Below are positions 4,537 to 50,702 of a DNA stretch of 50,743 nucleotides, in pieces. The notes beneath the pieces are model-generated. The model was not told the origin of the DNA. It saw nothing but the letters and a program-made list of their open reading frames with translations, and searched no databases. The position numbers were made by a program, and so were the translations under genes. Source of the stretch: an uncultured Deferribacteraceae bacterium (GTDB taxonomy: Bacteria; Chrysiogenota; Deferribacteres; Deferribacterales; Mucispirillaceae); NCBI GenBank assembly GCA_947041165.1, contig CAMRCY010000014.1:1-50743 (forward strand). Reading direction: 5' to 3'. Position 1 is the stretch's first letter. Each line of letters opens with the position of its first letter.

Positions 4537-4570
4537 TTTTTCACCTTTAAATATTTTAATCGTAGCTAAA

Positions 4571-4817
4571 TAAGCTTATAATAAAAGAATAGAAATAAAA
4601 CTTAAAATTTTTTAATTATACTAAACAACTTATTAAAACAGAATAGAAATAAAATTTATAACTTTTTAATTATATTAAACAACTTACCAAAACAGAATAG
4701 AAATAAAACTTAAAATTTTTTAATTATACTAAAGAAACTTATCAAAACTAAATAGAAATAAAATTTATAACTTTTAATTATACTAAATAAACTTATCAAA
4801 ACAGAATAGAAATAAAA
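4571..4817. repeat. Tandem array, 54-bp unit, about 4.5 copies
   Basis: Direct repeats with an exact 54-bp period fill the gap between meaB and the mcmA2 terminator. The shared core GAATAGAAATAAAA occurs near 4587, 4641, 4695, 4749 (slightly changed) and 4804. On the minus strand each full unit carries a perfect TATAAT hexamer (complements at 4615-4620, 4669-4674, 4723-4728, 4777-4782). The units sit directly upstream of meaB and could multiply its -10 elements. No matching -35 is convincing. The array's right edge runs into the terminator. Confidence 0.85.
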
Positions 4818-4847
4818 CCGCCCAAAAAATGTAGGCGGCTTTTTTAT
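4811..4847 (-). terminator. Intrinsic terminator after the B12-binding subunit gene
   Basis: CCGCC (4818-4822) pairs with GGCGG (4834-4838) around an 11-nt loop. T-rich tracts flank it on both strands, so it can act in both directions. It lies about 30 bp after the stop of the minus-strand gene at 4873-5274, which is the natural user. Confidence 0.8.
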
Positions 4848-7337: not shown

Positions 7338-7501
7338 CTTACTGTTAAAAATAATACTGTTTAATACTCGAAACCTTCTAGCATGCTTACTGTTAAAAAT
7401 AATATTGTTTAATACTGGAAACCTTCCAGCATGATTACTGTTAAAAATAATATTGTTTAATACTAGAAGTTTTACACAATGCTTACTGTTTAAAATAATA
7501 C
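7338..7501. repeat. Tandem array, 48-bp unit, 3 copies plus a partial copy in coding sequence
   Basis: Unit starts at 7338, 7386, 7434 and 7482 give an exact 48-bp period. The fourth, partial copy is the 3' end of the peptide-binding protein gene and includes its TAA stop (7483-7485), sharing CTTACTGTT and AAAATAATAC. The second unit contains a perfect hairpin, CTGGAA (7415-7420) / TTCCAG (7424-7429); it is imperfect in the others. The array fills the gap before oppB. Confidence 0.85.
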
Positions 7502-9165
7502 TTTTGCTCTAACTTTCTTACATACCAATCAATAAGATTATGTTTTAATCCAGCAGGAGCAGGTTCGATATTTTTAAATCTTTTACTTAGTGCAACATTT
7601 GCATAAGGTGTATATAGGAATATATATGGAGCATCATCTGCAATCAGTTCTTGTATCCTATTATAGATCACTTGGCGTTGTGAAGGCTCATAGGTTTCTC
7701 TACCCTCTATAAGCAGTTCATCAACTTCATCATTTTTATAACAGATAAAATTTAAACCTTTACCATCACATCGTGAAGAGTGCCAGACATCAAAAAGATC
7801 AGGATCTTGAACTATATTCCAACCCATTACGATAACTGAAAATCTTCCTTTGTTGATATTTTCTGATAAGAATGTTGACCATTCAACAATTCTAATCGTT
7901 ACATCAATTCCTATATCTTTATAAGCTTTTTGTAAAATTTCTGCTATCTGACTTCTAACTTTATTTCCTTGATTAGTTAATATTTCAAACTCAAACTTTT
8001 TGCCATCTTTATCAAGAAACCCATCGTCATCTGTATCTTCATAACCGATCTCTTTTAAAAGTGCTACAGCTTTTTCTGGGTTATAATCGTATCGTTCAAC
8101 ATTTCCATTATACCACATCGTATCTGTTTTATATGGACCAGTTGCCTCTTCTGCTCTATCGTATAAAATTCCTGTTATAATATCTTTTTTAGGTGTTGCA
8201 TAACTTAACGCTTTTCTTAAAGTGCTATTATCAAATGGTGCACGTCTAAGATTAAATCCAACATAAGTGTATGATGAGTCTAGATATGAATATGTGTTAT
8301 AGTTCTCTTTATATCTATTCATATTAGTTTGTTTTGTTGCCTGCATTGCTGAAAGCGACATCGTATCAATAGATCCATTAAGCAGTTCTAAAAACGATGT
8401 TGCAGTATCTGGAATTACTCTAAATATAATTCGTTCAAGATATGGTTTAGATTCAAAATAATCTTCGTTTACGATTAGTTGAATTGAATCACCTTCAGAC
8501 CAACTAAGCATTTTATACGGACCAGTACCGATAGGCATTCTTTGTAATGCAGATTGCGTTACAAGTTTTCCATCAAGCAGATGTTGAGGCATCATCCATA
8601 TTCCCCAGCTATTTAAAGCAGGCGAAAATAAAGTTTTATATCTAACAGTTACTGTATGGTTATCGATAACTTTAAATGACTCTATCAATCTAAAATCAGC
8701 ATCATAAGATGTTGGAGTAAGATTATCTATCATAAATCTATAAGTGAACTCTACATCTTTTGCAGTAAAAGGAACGCCATCGTGCCATTTAACATCTTTA
8801 CGAAGATGAAAAGTGATCTCCATTTTATCATCAGAAATCTCCCATGACGAAGCTAAATCGCCAACTAGTTCCAAGTTTTTATTATACTTAACAAGTCCGT
8901 TATATATATAACTTGTAACATCATGCGAAGCTGAGTCTGATGATATCGCAGGGATAAGATTTATCGGTTCACTTATTGTAACAGTTGCAAAAGCATCCCC
9001 AGGTGCAGGATCTCTTGATATAAATGAGTGTAGTTCATCAAGCTTTGTGTTTGATGCTTCGTAATGAAAATCTGTTTTATCATTGCCACTATTTAAGAAA
9101 ATTATTGCAAGGATGATTGCAACTACTGTGATTACTGCTAAAATTAAATATACGATTTTTGACAT
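7483..9165 (-). CDS. Extracellular solute-binding protein of a peptide ABC transporter (SBP_bac_5)
   Basis: This 560-residue protein belongs to the OppA/DppA family that captures peptides in the periplasm and delivers them to OppBC. It has an N-terminal hydrophobic segment (residues about 4-26) with no lipobox cysteine, so it is a cleaved signal or a membrane anchor. Family motifs are present: YNGLVKYNKNLELVGDLA, the adjacent WKWHDG-like motif KDVKWHDGVPFTAKDVEFTY, and RKALSYA. A longer N-terminal tether than usual suggests membrane attachment. It is first in the order binding protein, oppB, oppC. Its last codons are the parental copy of the 48-bp array that follows. Confidence 0.93.
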   Translation of the reverse strand: MSKIVYLILAVITVVAIILAIIFLNSGNDKTDFHYEASNTKLDELHSFISRDPAPGDAFATVTISEPINLIPAISSDSASHDVTSYIYNGLVKYNKNLELVGDLASSWEISDDKMEITFHLRKDVKWHDGVPFTAKDVEFTYRFMIDNLTPTSYDADFRLIESFKVIDNHTVTVRYKTLFSPALNSWGIWMMPQHLLDGKLVTQSALQRMPIGTGPYKMLSWSEGDSIQLIVNEDYFESKPYLERIIFRVIPDTATSFLELLNGSIDTMSLSAMQATKQTNMNRYKENYNTYSYLDSSYTYVGFNLRRAPFDNSTLRKALSYATPKKDIITGILYDRAEEATGPYKTDTMWYNGNVERYDYNPEKAVALLKEIGYEDTDDDGFLDKDGKKFEFEILTNQGNKVRSQIAEILQKAYKDIGIDVTIRIVEWSTFLSENINKGRFSVIVMGWNIVQDPDLFDVWHSSRCDGKGLNFICYKNDEVDELLIEGRETYEPSQRQVIYNRIQELIADDAPYIFLYTPYANVALSKRFKNIEPAPAGLKHNLIDWYVRKLEQKYYFKQ

Positions 9166-11642: not shown

Positions 11643-11849
11643 AGGTTACAAACTAAGTTTAATTACAAAACATAAGTTTTAGTTATAACGCATAAGCTTA
11701 GTTACAATGCATAAGTTTAATTACAAAACATAAGTTTTAGTTATAACGCATAAACTTAGTTACAATGCATAAATTTAATTACAAAACATAAGTTTAGTTA
11801 CACTGCATAAACTAGATTACACTGCATAAACTTAGTTACAAAACATAAG
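11643..11849. repeat. Tandem array with 58-bp period built from 19-20-bp sub-repeats
   Basis: ATTACAAAACATAAGTTT-type blocks recur about every 19-20 bp. A higher-order period of 58 bp is exact between 11661, 11719 and 11777. It occupies the gap between the secG terminator and the LprI-like genes. No reading frame or clear hairpin is seen. Confidence 0.85.
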
Positions 11850-11867
11850 TAACTTCTAATCCATAAA

Positions 11868-24233: not shown

Positions 24234-24545
24234 ACATATATATTAGTCTTATAAACGTATATAAAACCTATAAATATTTAAAACTTATGAATAATTAAAA
24301 CGTACAAATAATGACTAAACTTGTAAATAGATATAATACCTATGAATATATTTAAGTTACAAAAAAAAATGTAAACAGGTAAATATCTTCAGTTTATCAA
24401 TATATATAAAACTTATAATAGTATAGAACGCACAAATATATTTAATATAATAGAGCGTATCAATAATATATGATATTTACAAATATGTAATTGTTAAAGC
24501 ATACAAAACAAAGTTCATATAAATATGAGCAGTTACAATAACATA

Positions 24546-24815
24546 ATAAGTTTGCAATACACAATGCTACTAATAACAGAATAAGTTTGTAATATACAAC
24601 GCTACTAATAACAGAATAAGTTTGTAATATACAACGCTAGTAATAACTCAATAAGTTTGCAATACACAACGCTACTAATAACTCAATAAGTTTGCAATAT
24701 ACAACGCTACTAATAACAGAATAAGTTTGCAATACACAACGCTACTAATAACAGAATAAGTTTGCAAATAGACAATAATTTTAATAACTTAATCAGTTTG
24801 TAAATACACAACGCT
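24546..24815. repeat. Tandem array, 35-bp unit, seven or more copies
   Basis: ATAAGTTTG(C/T)AATA(C/T)ACAA-type units start at 24546, 24581, 24616, 24651, 24686, 24721 and 24756, an exact 35-bp period, with a degenerate eighth copy after. The left flank 24240-24540 is AT-rich with weaker, irregular copies and no gene. Units are contiguous, without spacers. Confidence 0.9.
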
Positions 24816-24881
24816 ACACTTCTAAAATATTATGTGAATGTTAAATTTATACAATAATTACAAAAGTATCAAGATTAATTT

Positions 24882-30669: not shown

Positions 30670-30755
30670 TTTAGTTCTAACCTCGTAAAAATATTAGTTG
30701 ATAACAAACAATTAGTAACACTAAATGTTTGTTATCAACAACTGATAGAAAATCA

Positions 30756-31050
30756 TACATATTGTACTGTGAAAATTATATTATAAACTGTAAAAATCAG
30801 TAAACCTGTAACGTAATTAAAAATTGCTCTTCAACTACATGGCGTAATAATTATACATATTGTACTGTGAAAATTATATTATAAACTGTAAAAATCAATA
30901 AACCTGTAACGTAATTAAAAATTGCTCTTCAACTATATGGTGTAATAATTATACATATCGTACTGTGAAAATTATATTAAAACTACTCTTCAACAATTGA
31001 TGGAAATATCACAAATATTACTGATGTGAAAATTATATTAAATACCGATA
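30756..31050. repeat. Tandem array, 98-bp unit, derived from the ccmB 3' end
   Basis: TACATATTG/TACATATCG occurs at 30756, 30854 and 30952, an exact 98-bp period. The units resemble the last ~95 bp of ccmB coding sequence: CTCTTCAAC plus a TGG block, and the 16-mer TGTGAAAATTATATTA, which is exact both in the array (from 30768) and inside ccmB (31025-31040). The array fills the ccmB-ccmC gap. Confidence 0.85.
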
Positions 31051-42016: not shown

Positions 42017-43012
42017 TTAGCTTACTGCAAGGTATGACATATACACATAGACAACATACAGAATTAAAAAAGCAATTCCTACAAATCTATTCATAACTTT
42101 TCCGAACCATATAAAGAATATTAATATAAATGATACAGCTCCCATCACAGGCAGATCAAACATTACTATAGAGTGTGGGAATGTAACAGGTTCAATTATT
42201 CCAGATACACCTAAGATAAATAGAACATTATATATGTTACTTCCGATTATATTACCAAGCACAATATCTGATTCTTTTTTAATAGTTGCAATAACTGCTG
42301 CTGCAAGTTCCGGTAGTGATGTTCCAACGGCTACAACTGTTAAGCCGATTAATGTTTCACTAATATTAAAGTTTCTTGCAAGCTCAATTGCAGACTTAAC
42401 AAGCATATCAGCACCAAACAATGTTAATCCTATCCCAGCTATTGCGATCGCTATATAGATATAGATACTTTTGTTATATGTTTCAGTTTCGACTGGCCCA
42501 GTTTCGACTGGCCCAGTTTCGACTGTTTTAGTGCAAAGTGGATCAGTATCTTCTGAAGTTACACAGTATGCTTTTTTATCTTCTCTGTATGAGTACACGA
42601 TAAATATTATTAATGATGTGATGAAGATAATCCCTATCGGTAGATTAACATGTCCAAACCATGCAGCAACTGCAACAAGCAGTAGTGATATAATAAGCAT
42701 TATAGCATCACGTCTATATCTTTTTCTTAATTGGTTAATAGGCAGTATTGATGCTGCAATTCCAAGCACAAGAAGTATATTTGCGATATTACTTCCAACA
42801 ACATTTCCTATTGCGATCCCTGGTGAATTAAGTATTGATGCTTTAAGAGTTGTAACAAGTTCAGGAGTTGATGTCCCAAACCCAACAATCACAATTGATA
42901 TTATTATTTTTGACACATTCAGTTTGTAAGCAACAGCTGTTGAGCCGTTCACAAGAAGTGTGCCTCCAGCTACAAGCATTGATAAGCCGATAAGAAGATA
43001 TAGATACGTCAT
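42017..43012 (-). CDS. Calcium/sodium antiporter, CaCA (YrbG-like) family
   Basis: A 331-residue inner-membrane cation exchanger with ten membrane helices in two inverted halves. Each half has an alpha repeat: VGFGTSTPELVTTLKA with IGNVVGSNIANILLVLG, and VAVGTSLPELAAAVIA with LGNIIGSNIYNVLFILG. These form the ion site. The loop between the halves contains an in-frame repeat of five residues (VETGP, twice, then VETET), encoded by a 15-bp DNA repeat. Substrate is Ca2+/Na+ by family. Ends in a strong terminator. Confidence 0.93.
   Translation of the reverse strand: MTYLYLLIGLSMLVAGGTLLVNGSTAVAYKLNVSKIIISIVIVGFGTSTPELVTTLKASILNSPGIAIGNVVGSNIANILLVLGIAASILPINQLRKRYRRDAIMLIISLLLVAVAAWFGHVNLPIGIIFITSLIIFIVYSYREDKKAYCVTSEDTDPLCTKTVETGPVETGPVETETYNKSIYIYIAIAIAGIGLTLFGADMLVKSAIELARNFNISETLIGLTVVAVGTSLPELAAAVIATIKKESDIVLGNIIGSNIYNVLFILGVSGIIEPVTFPHSIVMFDLPVMGAVSFILIFFIWFGKVMNRFVGIAFLILYVVYVYMSYLAVS
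42482..42530. repeat. 15-bp coding tandem repeat in the exchanger gene
   Basis: CAGTTTCGACTGGCC occurs twice in full, followed by CAGTTTCGACTG, in frame, encoding VETGP units in the cytoplasmic loop. Slippage could change loop length by five residues without breaking the frame. Confidence 0.85.
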
Positions 43013-47156: not shown

Positions 47157-48020
47157 ATGAAAAATATAATTGATAAAGCGTCGATATTAGTCGAGAGTCT
47201 ACCATACATTAATAGATTTTCAGGCAAGACGTTTGTGATAAAATATGGTGGGCATGCTATGGAGGATAGTGATTATCAATATAGTTTTGCACAAGATATA
47301 ACGTTACTACATTATGTTGGTATAAAAGTTATTATCGTCCACGGCGGCGGTCCTCAGATCGGTGAAATGTTAGATAGGTTATCTATCAAGTCTGAATTCA
47401 AAAGTGGAATGCGTGTAACAGACTCAGATTCTATTGAGATAATTGAGATGGTTTTATCAGGCAAAATCAATAAAAACATTGTATCATTAATAAATAAAGC
47501 AGGCGGATCAGCGTTAGGTTTATCAGGTAGAGATGCTAATTTAATTGTTGCAGATAAATTATATTTAAATGAGAACGGCGAGAAGATAGATATCGGATTA
47601 GTAGGTGATATCAAAAGTATCAACACCGAAGTTATTAATCATATAGCTGAAAAATTTATTCCAGTTATAGCACCGATCGGTGTAGGAGATGATTTTACGC
47701 CATTCAATATTAATGCAGATGTTGCAGCAGGAGCTATCGCATCAGCCTTAAAAGCAGAGAAGTTAATACTTTTAACAGATGTTGACGGTGTGAAAGATAA
47801 GTCAGGTGATAGAATTTCAACTATCAAATTATCAGATGTAGATAGTTTGCGTACAGATGGCACATTAACAGGTGGGATGATCCCAAAAGTTGAGTGTGCA
47901 GCATCGGCTATAAAAGCAGGCGTAACTAAGGCACATATAATAGATGGACGAGTGTTACATTCAGTCCTATTAGAAATTTTTACAGATTCAGGTATAGGAA
48001 CTCAGGTGGTAGATGGATAA
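47157..48020 (+). CDS. argB: Acetylglutamate kinase
   Basis: ArgB phosphorylates N-acetylglutamate in arginine synthesis. The protein is 287 residues from the ATG at 47157, with AAGGTG upstream; a TTG two codons earlier is the alternative. Family motifs are FVIKYGGHAMED, IVHGGGPQIGEML, LSGRDANL, and the TGGMIPKV substrate loop. The C-terminal region lacks an obvious N-terminal arginine-sensing helix extension. Its stop overlaps the pcm start by 8 bp. Confidence 0.95.
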   Translation: MKNIIDKASILVESLPYINRFSGKTFVIKYGGHAMEDSDYQYSFAQDITLLHYVGIKVIIVHGGGPQIGEMLDRLSIKSEFKSGMRVTDSDSIEIIEMVLSGKINKNIVSLINKAGGSALGLSGRDANLIVADKLYLNENGEKIDIGLVGDIKSINTEVINHIAEKFIPVIAPIGVGDDFTPFNINADVAAGAIASALKAEKLILLTDVDGVKDKSGDRISTIKLSDVDSLRTDGTLTGGMIPKVECAASAIKAGVTKAHIIDGRVLHSVLLEIFTDSGIGTQVVDG

Positions 48021-48639
48021 TTTTAATTTTGATGTAAAATCTCCTAAATATTTTATAGACGATATAATACGTAAAGCTGCAGGTGGTGATGCAAGAATAA
48101 TTAATGCATTTGAAGTTATTCCAAGGGCTGTTTTTATACCAGAAGCGTCAAGACATCAAGCTTATGATGATATCTCATTGCCGATAGGACAAGGACAAAC
48201 GATATCGCAACCGTCGTTACTTGCACATATGTTAAAGAAGTTGGATATAAAAGAAACAGATACTATTTTAGAGATCGGTTCAGGATCAGGATATCTAGCG
48301 GCATTGCTATCAAAAATGTGTAAGAATGTTTATTCGGTTGAGCGTATAGCTCCACTATTAAATTCAGCAAGAAAGTTATTAAGAAGAATGAGTATATCAA
48401 ATGTACATTTTTTATTAGGTGATGGAGCTTTAGGTTGGGAAGATCACGCACCATACGATAAGATTGTTGCATCAGCTGGAGCTACAAAAATCCCAGATAA
48501 TTTAGTTGCACAATTATCAGATAATGGAAGATTTTTAATTCCGCTCAATGATAGCTTAATGTGCTATATCAAAGAGAACGGCACAATTATTGAAGAGAAA
48601 GGTGTGCCTGTTAAATTTGTAGATTTTGTAGGCAGTTAA
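48013..48639 (+). CDS. pcm: Protein-L-isoaspartate O-methyltransferase
   Basis: Pcm methylates isoaspartyl residues in aged proteins to start their repair, using S-adenosylmethionine. The 208-residue protein has the SAM motif ILEIGSGSGYLAALL, GQGQTISQPSLLA upstream, and the post-I motif in VYSVERIAPL. It overlaps argB by 8 bp. Its last codons, GTA GGC AGT TAA, form the first unit of the array that follows. Confidence 0.95.
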   Translation: MDNFNFDVKSPKYFIDDIIRKAAGGDARIINAFEVIPRAVFIPEASRHQAYDDISLPIGQGQTISQPSLLAHMLKKLDIKETDTILEIGSGSGYLAALLSKMCKNVYSVERIAPLLNSARKLLRRMSISNVHFLLGDGALGWEDHAPYDKIVASAGATKIPDNLVAQLSDNGRFLIPLNDSLMCYIKENGTIIEEKGVPVKFVDFVGS

Positions 48640-48866
48640 TTTTCCTGCTTACGACCATGGCTATATGTATTTTGTAGGCAGTTAATCTTTCCTACTTACG
48701 ACTATAGCTATATGTATATTGTAGGCAGTTAGTTTTACTACTTACGACTACTGTTATATGTATATTGTAGGCAGTTAATCTTTCCTACTTACGACCATGG
48801 CTATATGTATATTGTAGACAGTTAATTTTCCTGCTTACGACTACGGCTATATGCATATTGTAACCT
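48628..48866. repeat. Tandem array, 46-47-bp unit, five copies, starting inside pcm
   Basis: GTAGGCAGTTAA-type units start at 48628 (the pcm 3' end with its stop), 48674, 48721, 48767 and 48814, with a remnant at 48860. In each unit GTAGGCAG can pair with a downstream CTGCTTAC or CTACTTAC, with a wobble and in some units a mismatch. Each unit is therefore a small hairpin with TTAA in its loop. Confidence 0.9.
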
Positions 48867-48920
48867 AGTATATTTCTATAATAGTATCAATCTTAACAAT
48901 ATATATACGTGTGCAATATA

Positions 48921-50036
48921 CTACTTAGTTTCGTTATCGTTTTTCACAACATTGATAACAACAATCTCTGCTTTAGTAGCAATCCTCAATCTTAATCCCC
49001 ATAGGTATATTCCACTTGTAACAACTTGAGTAGTATTATCATACTCTTTCACTCCGTAATCATTCTGATACATATATTTTACTATTAGATTAATCGGAAA
49101 CAGTTGTCCAGCGTGAGTATGTCCTGATAGCAGAAGATCTATGTTGTTATTTTTAGCAGACTCAATACTTTCATCGCTCGGTATATGATCAATAACTATT
49201 GATAGATAACTTTCATCAATATCTTTTACTAAATCGGTTAAATTATCTCTATTGATTTTAGATTCAACTTTAGAAATTGAGAAAGGAATATCTAAATCTC
49301 TACCTATAATATTAACAGAGAGGTTGTCGATAGTAGAAACTTCATCAACTAGCATAATCAAATCACTATCTTGAAGAGTAGGCACAACGATATTTTTAAG
49401 CCCAGCGTAGTAATCATGATTTCCAAGAGCAGCGTAAATCGGCATATTAATATTTCTTAACACAGCTATATTTTCTTCAGTCATATCTTTCACATCTGCA
49501 TCTATAATATCTCCAGCGAAGATCGCAAAATCTGCATCTATGTTATTTATCTTATCAACATACATATTCAATCGTTTTAATGATGTAGTTCTATCAACAT
49601 GCATATCTGCTATTAAAACTATTTTAAGATTTCTAGAGATATTTTTATCGGTGTACACAGTGTACTCTTTAATAATCGGTGTCATGCTGTTTAGGTAACC
49701 GTATATATATATGATAGCAGTGGCGATCATTATTATGTAAGGAGTTTTAAGTGGAGTCCTATTTTGTATGTGTAGGAGAGTTAATATATTGACAATAACG
49801 AACACCATAAACAATATAAATGTTATACCCATTATATGGTATGCAATAGATAAAATATATGGAGGCACTTCAACATTAAATTGATACTGTAAAATTCTAA
49901 GTATTAAGAATGACTCAATAACAATAAGTGTAATCGGTATTGAAATATAACTTGCAATGTTTGGTAGTAGATATTTATATACGTTGAACGAGATATATGT
50001 AGCAAGAAAAAGATTAAGAATAAGAAATTTTATCAT
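48921..50036 (-). CDS. Membrane-anchored metallophosphoesterase
   Basis: A calcineurin-like phosphoesterase with a membrane N-terminus. The 371-residue protein has four or so hydrophobic helices in residues 1-125, then the YkuE-like catalytic domain. Metal-site motifs appear in order: VLIADMHVDR, FAGDIIDA, LGNHDYYAG and SGHTHAGQLFP. Some relatives (LpxG and UDP-diacylglucosamine hydrolases) act on lipid A precursors; others on phosphodiesters. Which one applies here is not clear. A 9-bp inverted repeat, TAGTATATT (48866-48874) and AATATACTA (48915-48923), overlaps its stop. Confidence 0.88.
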   Translation of the reverse strand: MIKFLILNLFLATYISFNVYKYLLPNIASYISIPITLIVIESFLILRILQYQFNVEVPPYILSIAYHIMGITFILFMVFVIVNILTLLHIQNRTPLKTPYIIMIATAIIYIYGYLNSMTPIIKEYTVYTDKNISRNLKIVLIADMHVDRTTSLKRLNMYVDKINNIDADFAIFAGDIIDADVKDMTEENIAVLRNINMPIYAALGNHDYYAGLKNIVVPTLQDSDLIMLVDEVSTIDNLSVNIIGRDLDIPFSISKVESKINRDNLTDLVKDIDESYLSIVIDHIPSDESIESAKNNNIDLLLSGHTHAGQLFPINLIVKYMYQNDYGVKEYDNTTQVVTSGIYLWGLRLRIATKAEIVVINVVKNDNETK

Positions 50037-50702
50037 TTATAAATCACCTTAGTAATAGTTGGAAAATTAGTATAGTTATGGAAATAAATTTTGTAAATAT
50101 AAAACATGTAGAATTTTATAACGTAAATAATCGGTTATAAGAGTATCATATTTTTAAAAGACACTTTATTTAGGGAGATCATTTAACTCAATTATTGTCA
50201 TACTATAGAGATAGTGATAGAGAGTAAGTTCAATTAATTCTCAAAATATGATGAATTAGAAACTAAGTTTAACTTTATTTTAGATAATTATTAAATTTAA
50301 ATTTCATGAAATCACAATATTTTTGATTATATTTATTTTAATATTGATGAATATTAAATAACTTTTTAATAGATTAAATTTATATTTAGTTAAGAGAATA
50401 AGTTATTTTATGATGATAAAGATATCTTTAACACAATTAAACTATATTATTTTATAATGTATTTACATCAAATATTTTATAAAAATCGGAATATATAGAT
50501 AAAACTTCATGAATATTTTGAAATTTTTTAAAATATTTTAATTTCATGTTAAATTATTATGTTGGTTGAGTGCAATTTGAAATTCTTTTATTTATAAGCT
50601 ATTTAGGAGATATCATAAGGTGTATTCGTTTGTATAAATGTCAAAATACTTTATATTTTAAGATCAATTTAGATATATTTATAAATTATTATTTATTTTT
50701 TC
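50037..50702. other. Gene-free AT-rich region
   Basis: I see no convincing coding frame, RNA gene or long repeat in this stretch. It is very AT-rich with many A and T tracts, which fits curved or UP-element-like DNA before the promoter at the window end. Confidence 0.6.

Follow-up and report, generated by a model that had tools for sequence, protein, structure and literature searches.

How did a fivefold repeat come to lie across the end of a gene, and does the RNA copied from it do anything? This question is raised by the pcm locus of an uncultured Deferribacteraceae bacterium, which we analysed within a window of 50,743 nucleotides, the whole stretch of DNA studied here (contig 14). We found a tandem array at 48626-48862 with a period of 46 bp and a dimer period of 93 bp, 5.1 copies and 87% matches, and five units of 46, 47, 46, 47 and 46 bp tile positions 48626-48857 exactly (Table 1). 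Head-to-tail copies of one unit of roughly 10-100 bp are what defines a minisatellite, and the array at the pcm end is one. Units 2 and 4 differ by two mismatches. An initial annotation of this DNA had described five units of 46-47 bp separating convergent pcm and metallophosphoesterase genes; the array is real, its anatomy and coordinates had been given essentially correctly, and the strands of the two genes fit. The annotation had also placed the pcm stop codon inside the first hairpin, and the TAA does lie in the loop of the unit 1 stem. Its statement that the first unit is coding holds for the first 14 bases of unit 1, which are the last pcm codons, and not for the remainder of the unit, which lies past the end of pcm at 48639.

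Table 1. Features at the pcm end of the window, in window positions.
Feature	Coordinates	Strand	Remarks
pcm, protein-L-isoaspartate O-methyltransferase	48013-48639	+	NF001453 and TIGR00080, above cut-off
Five-unit minisatellite, 46 or 47 bp per unit	48626-48857		Single genomic site
Unit 1, 46 bp	48626-48671	+	Contains the pcm stop codon (48637-48639); sole unit with a complete stem
Unit 2, 47 bp	48672-48718	+	C.A mismatch in stem
Unit 3, 46 bp	48719-48764	+	C.A mismatch in stem
Unit 4, 47 bp	48765-48811	+	C.A mismatch in stem; nearest to units 1 and 2
Unit 5, 46 bp	48812-48857	+	A.C mismatch in stem
TTGTA remnant after the last unit	48858-48862	+	Identical to the start of unit 1; putative duplication junction
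Metallophosphoesterase-family gene	48921-50036	-	Convergent with pcm; similar to YaeI, below the cut-off of that model

Unit 1 can fold into a hairpin with a 10-bp stem, TTGTAGGCAG/CTGCTTACGA, in which positions 48626-48635 pair with 48645-48654. The initial annotation had every unit forming such a hairpin, with arms that varied and mostly kept pairing, and it took this as a sign of selection for RNA structure. Within the array, however, the complete stem is confined to unit 1. Units 2-4 share the unit 1 form of arm 1, GTAGGCAG, and have CTAC in place of CTGC against GGCAG, which replaces a C-G pair with a C.A mismatch. In unit 5, arm 1 is GTAGACAG, giving an A.C mismatch. The change from CTG to CTA breaks a pair with no compensation. 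Against 300 shuffles, unit 1 gave p = 0.04 with a fold of -11.7 kcal/mol. The folds of units 2-5, at -5 to -7 kcal/mol, did not surpass those of shuffles on either strand (p 0.18-0.67). Folding of the whole array was unremarkable on the plus strand (z -1.27, with 19 of 200 shuffles at least as good) and a little better than that of shuffles on the minus strand (z -1.75, 5 of 200), a weak structure that counts against an array without function. In an eight-row alignment of the units and sibling sequences, whose stem register proved right when the partners were slid, no covariation was found beyond that of shuffles, the alignment being small, with two poorly aligned rows and little power. A selected structured RNA is expected to fold better than shuffles and to show compensatory changes across its copies. 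The array as a whole does not, and unit 1 taken alone with its one counterpart in the closest sibling species would do so weakly.

The same data bear on the suggestion, also made in the initial annotation, that the array is a terminator or stability element. Stacked hairpins would then stop the transcripts of pcm, and perhaps of the convergent gene as well, or protect their 3' ends. The full stem of unit 1, the location between convergent genes and the weak folding excess on the minus strand all speak for such a role, as does the lack of a classical terminator there, which the annotation had noted correctly: our terminator scan of positions 48000-50100 returned no site and no U-tract. An intrinsic terminator, however, is a G+C-rich stem directly before a U-tract, and the unit 1 stem is followed by CCATGGC. 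Moreover, one sibling species (G001) has the gene pair with neither array nor hairpin in a gap of about 35 bp, and across the genus the units of 85 intergenic arrays folded with a mean z of -0.34 to -0.85, as against -0.53 for ordinary downstream sequence, 30-80 bases past stop codons, in the host genome. Array units in the genus are therefore about as structured as other downstream intergenic DNA, and structure is not the driver of the arrays. We consider a terminating or stabilizing array very unlikely, and the broken stems, the shuffle tests and the missing U-tract were our grounds for ruling out a structured-RNA reading of it.

We compared the locus in three sibling genomes of the host's genus (G001, G002 and G003, one genome per species). 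The named close relatives of the host genome are uncultured Deferribacteraceae MAGs. The convergent pcm and metallophosphoesterase pair is present in all three siblings. The short gap of G001 lacks the second arm as well as the array and hairpin; the gap of G003 is roughly 80-100 bp, with no array and an incomplete hairpin. The nearest sibling by pcm DNA (92%) is G002, where we found one copy of the unit, with an 11-bp stem of -14.3 kcal/mol (z -4.3). The number of units is thus five in the host versus one or none in the siblings, and the other relatives examined had no array near pcm. These observations support expansion, which the initial annotation had offered as its alternative to selection. 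Just downstream of the single homologous unit, the pcm-metallophosphoesterase gap of G002 also contains a 65-bp x 2.2 array of unrelated sequence (L022:5645-5789).

The copy in G002 also raises a narrower functional explanation, in which function is confined to the hairpin around the pcm stop codon, a single 3' element inherited from an ancestor and kept in the host and G002, and the array is a by-product of its duplication. The stability of the G002 hairpin argues for it, and so does the retention of ten pairs in unit 1, whose stem differs from that of G002 in a compensatory pair (C-G / U-A) and a single U-G / C-G change; both fit selection on a single hairpin and weigh against a locus without function. 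Arm 1 is coding, however, and constrained in any case, and with just three stem differences a chance retention is plausible. The hairpin is missing or incomplete in the other two siblings, and windows spanning stop codons have no general structure in the host genome (mean z 0.01). We therefore regard this explanation as rather unlikely. The stem sequences, the one line of support for a selected hairpin, hint that an older single hairpin may have been maintained at the pcm 3' end, in numbers too small for proof.

We consider it likely, with a probability of about 0.85, that the array is instead an intergenic minisatellite of the VNTR type that arose in the lineage of the host species and that probably lacks a sequence-specific function. 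A 46-bp segment, running from the last pcm codons into the gap, would have been duplicated between two copies of TTGTA one unit apart, probably through strand slippage or unequal exchange. TTGTA stands at the start of unit 1 (48626) and again at 48858, and duplication between two such copies yields exactly a unit and remnant of this kind. Further multiplication would have followed, partly as dimers; the 93-bp dimer period and the similarity of units 2 and 4 suggest later copying in this form. The first copy would have left pcm intact, which would explain why the stop codon is located in unit 1. That the array probably has no sequence-specific function we infer from the loss of the stem in later units and the lack of an array in the siblings.

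Growth in place also competes with arrival from elsewhere, in which a repeat family that is dispersed or mobile, and resembles MIRU, REP or CRISPR sequences, would have inserted a copy behind pcm. Short intergenic units with hairpin potential are in keeping with such a family. The unit, however, was matched at one site in the whole 2.14-Mb, 70-contig genome, where a MIRU-type family would occupy several, and its units follow one another without spacers. There was no exact pattern match in viral contigs and no Rfam match in the window. Conserved pcm codons form the start of unit 1, and the lone G002 copy can be aligned with it, as expected of an array that grew where it stands. In addition, GTAGGYAG at the pcm end is common to all four species, which argues that the array grew out of the pcm end and was not inserted. 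An inserted element is, in our judgement, almost certainly the wrong explanation.

To place this minisatellite among others, we ran TRF, with simple masking of ORFs, on sampled stretches of the host genome and its relatives. Since many of these stretches started where a contig does, and contigs frequently open within an array (9 of 20 in G003), the counts were restricted to arrays lying more than 500 bp from the ends of a stretch. The host sample of 451 kb contained 29 intergenic arrays with units of up to 150 bp, a density of 64 per Mb that extrapolates to roughly 140 arrays in the genome. The corresponding densities in the sampled stretches of G002, G003 and G001 were 35, 15 and 15 per Mb, and the host exceeded these siblings combined (p about 1e-4) in a comparison of genomes that differ in assembly quality. 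Outside the genus we sampled 789 kb from three genomes of two sister genera (G004, G005 and G006). Intergenic arrays with units of up to 150 bp were absent from 400 kb of G005 (p about 1e-8 for host versus G005), and arrays of any kind from 389 kb of G004 and G006. Units in the genus had a median length of 47 bp and a slightly higher GC content than the rest of the intergenic DNA (0.276 versus 0.238); a strand-composition bias was sought and did not exceed background.

Repeats of other kinds were also seen. G005 has three intergenic arrays with units of 208-274 bp (L125:504-1270, L129:2863-3430 and L132:2549-2959), which fold very strongly (mean z -4.4) and are a different kind of repeat. Long coding repeat arrays at L042:3303-8096 and L049:461-6889 are built of 108-bp (36-aa) and 63-66-bp repeats; we take the former to resemble Sel1-type repeats and the latter leucine-rich repeats. 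The window itself holds a perfect 15-bp x 2.8 repeat (42484-42525) within a sodium/calcium-exchanger-like ORF (42017-43012, minus strand), which yields VETGPVETGPVET in a loop of the product, and five further intergenic minisatellites at 4554-4818, 7338-7502, 11654-11850, 24537-24817 and 30751-30984, whose units of 54, 48, 58, 35 and 98 bp are unrelated. Four of these five were checked against the siblings and were not arrays of that unit there.

Fifteen host arrays had an orthologous site in at least one sibling, and 13 of them lacked a counterpart array of the same unit in the sibling or siblings tested, at sites where the aligned flanks were 73-96% identical. The array at 4554-4818, for example, is a single 52-bp stretch in G001, and that at 7338-7502 has an orthologous site without a detected array. 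The two arrays common to siblings are at L037:18591 and L052:3441 of the host, the latter being 39 bp x 7.0 in G001. With respect to genes, an array overlapped the adjacent ORF by 3 bp or more at 20 of 90 3' ends versus 3 of 51 5' ends (Fisher p = 0.016), a count based on crude ORF calls in which all three 5' overlaps come from G001. It may be that this bias reflects only an easier tolerance of duplication at the end of a gene than at its start.

Among the repair and replication genes checked, we found no cause for the abundance of arrays being limited to the genus. The gene mutS1 is present throughout the genus and does not explain it; nor does SbcD, which was not detected in the genus, yet is weak or absent in array-free relatives too. 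We did not find recG and mutS2 in the host genome, although they are present in its siblings. Their neighbours in the same sibling block (G003 L076:8373-19229), murJ and a membrane-protein gene, were not found in the host genome either, which makes a missing contig likelier than a true loss; judging from this gene content, the absence is probably an assembly gap, despite an estimated completeness of 98.56%. A 13-kb DNA query of the block gave no match among the 40 candidates scored of 230. The duplication phenotype of yeast rad27 points to a lost 5' flap nuclease of Pol I as another candidate, and this was ruled out by the presence of the domain and its conserved aspartates in polA. In the host Pol I (polA, L034:5129-7543, minus strand), about ten residues are inserted near SKSETPNDLTSK, past the EADD motif in the 5' nuclease domain. 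The insertion is absent from the four relatives aligned, and the three remaining members of the genus have PF02739 matches of the same length.

Known systems offer parallels to both the array and its abundance. ETR-F/VNTR3239, in the rnc-fpg1 gap of the M. tuberculosis complex, varies in copy number between isolates in correlation with downstream gene expression, and other mycobacteria have just a few bp between the two genes (PMC2734929). Like it, the pcm-end array consists of intergenic units of tens of bp, is found in one lineage only and corresponds to a short gap in relatives. It differs in beginning inside the gene end, whereas the rnc-fpg1 array starts 40 bp after the stop codon (PMC2734929), in lying between convergent genes, and in that its copy number is known here from one genome per species. 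MIRU elements of Mycobacterium, which resemble the pcm unit in size and intergenic position, are scattered over 41 sites (PMC2734929), unlike the single site of the pcm unit. Closer to the pattern in the genus are the tandem repeats of Borgs, archaeal extrachromosomal elements, whose units are enriched in A (PMC9879509). As in Borgs, there are many independent arrays with differing units that are rarely conserved between close relatives (13 of 15 here), lie in intergenic DNA or start within an ORF end, have partial-repeat flanks and are virtually absent from the comparison genome. Unlike Borg repeats, the arrays of the genus sit on bacterial contigs and have no A-versus-T bias (gene-strand AT skew -0.03, compared with 0.00 in other intergenic DNA). 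We tentatively suggest that a peculiarity of replication or repair in the genus could be making new intergenic tandem duplications of about 20-150 bp, favouring gene 3' ends and leaving every species with a separate set of arrays, perhaps a hundred in number, which would be the bacterial-chromosome counterpart of Borg tandem repeats.

A text search whose coverage leaves out most subscription journals returned no paper on Mucispirillum and tandem repeats, and repeats are not mentioned in a study of related Deferribacterota from insect guts (PMC12887300). The pcm-end array is a new locus of an ordinary kind; the abundance of such arrays in the genus is unusual. The array is a caution against taking hairpins in repeats for selected structure. 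Because many sampled contigs begin inside an array, such arrays probably limit short-read assembly of genomes of the genus, and they could serve for strain typing. With tens of arrays per Mb here, and none of this kind sampled in the sister genera, these genera provide a natural comparison for asking what allows bacteria to form and retain small tandem duplications.
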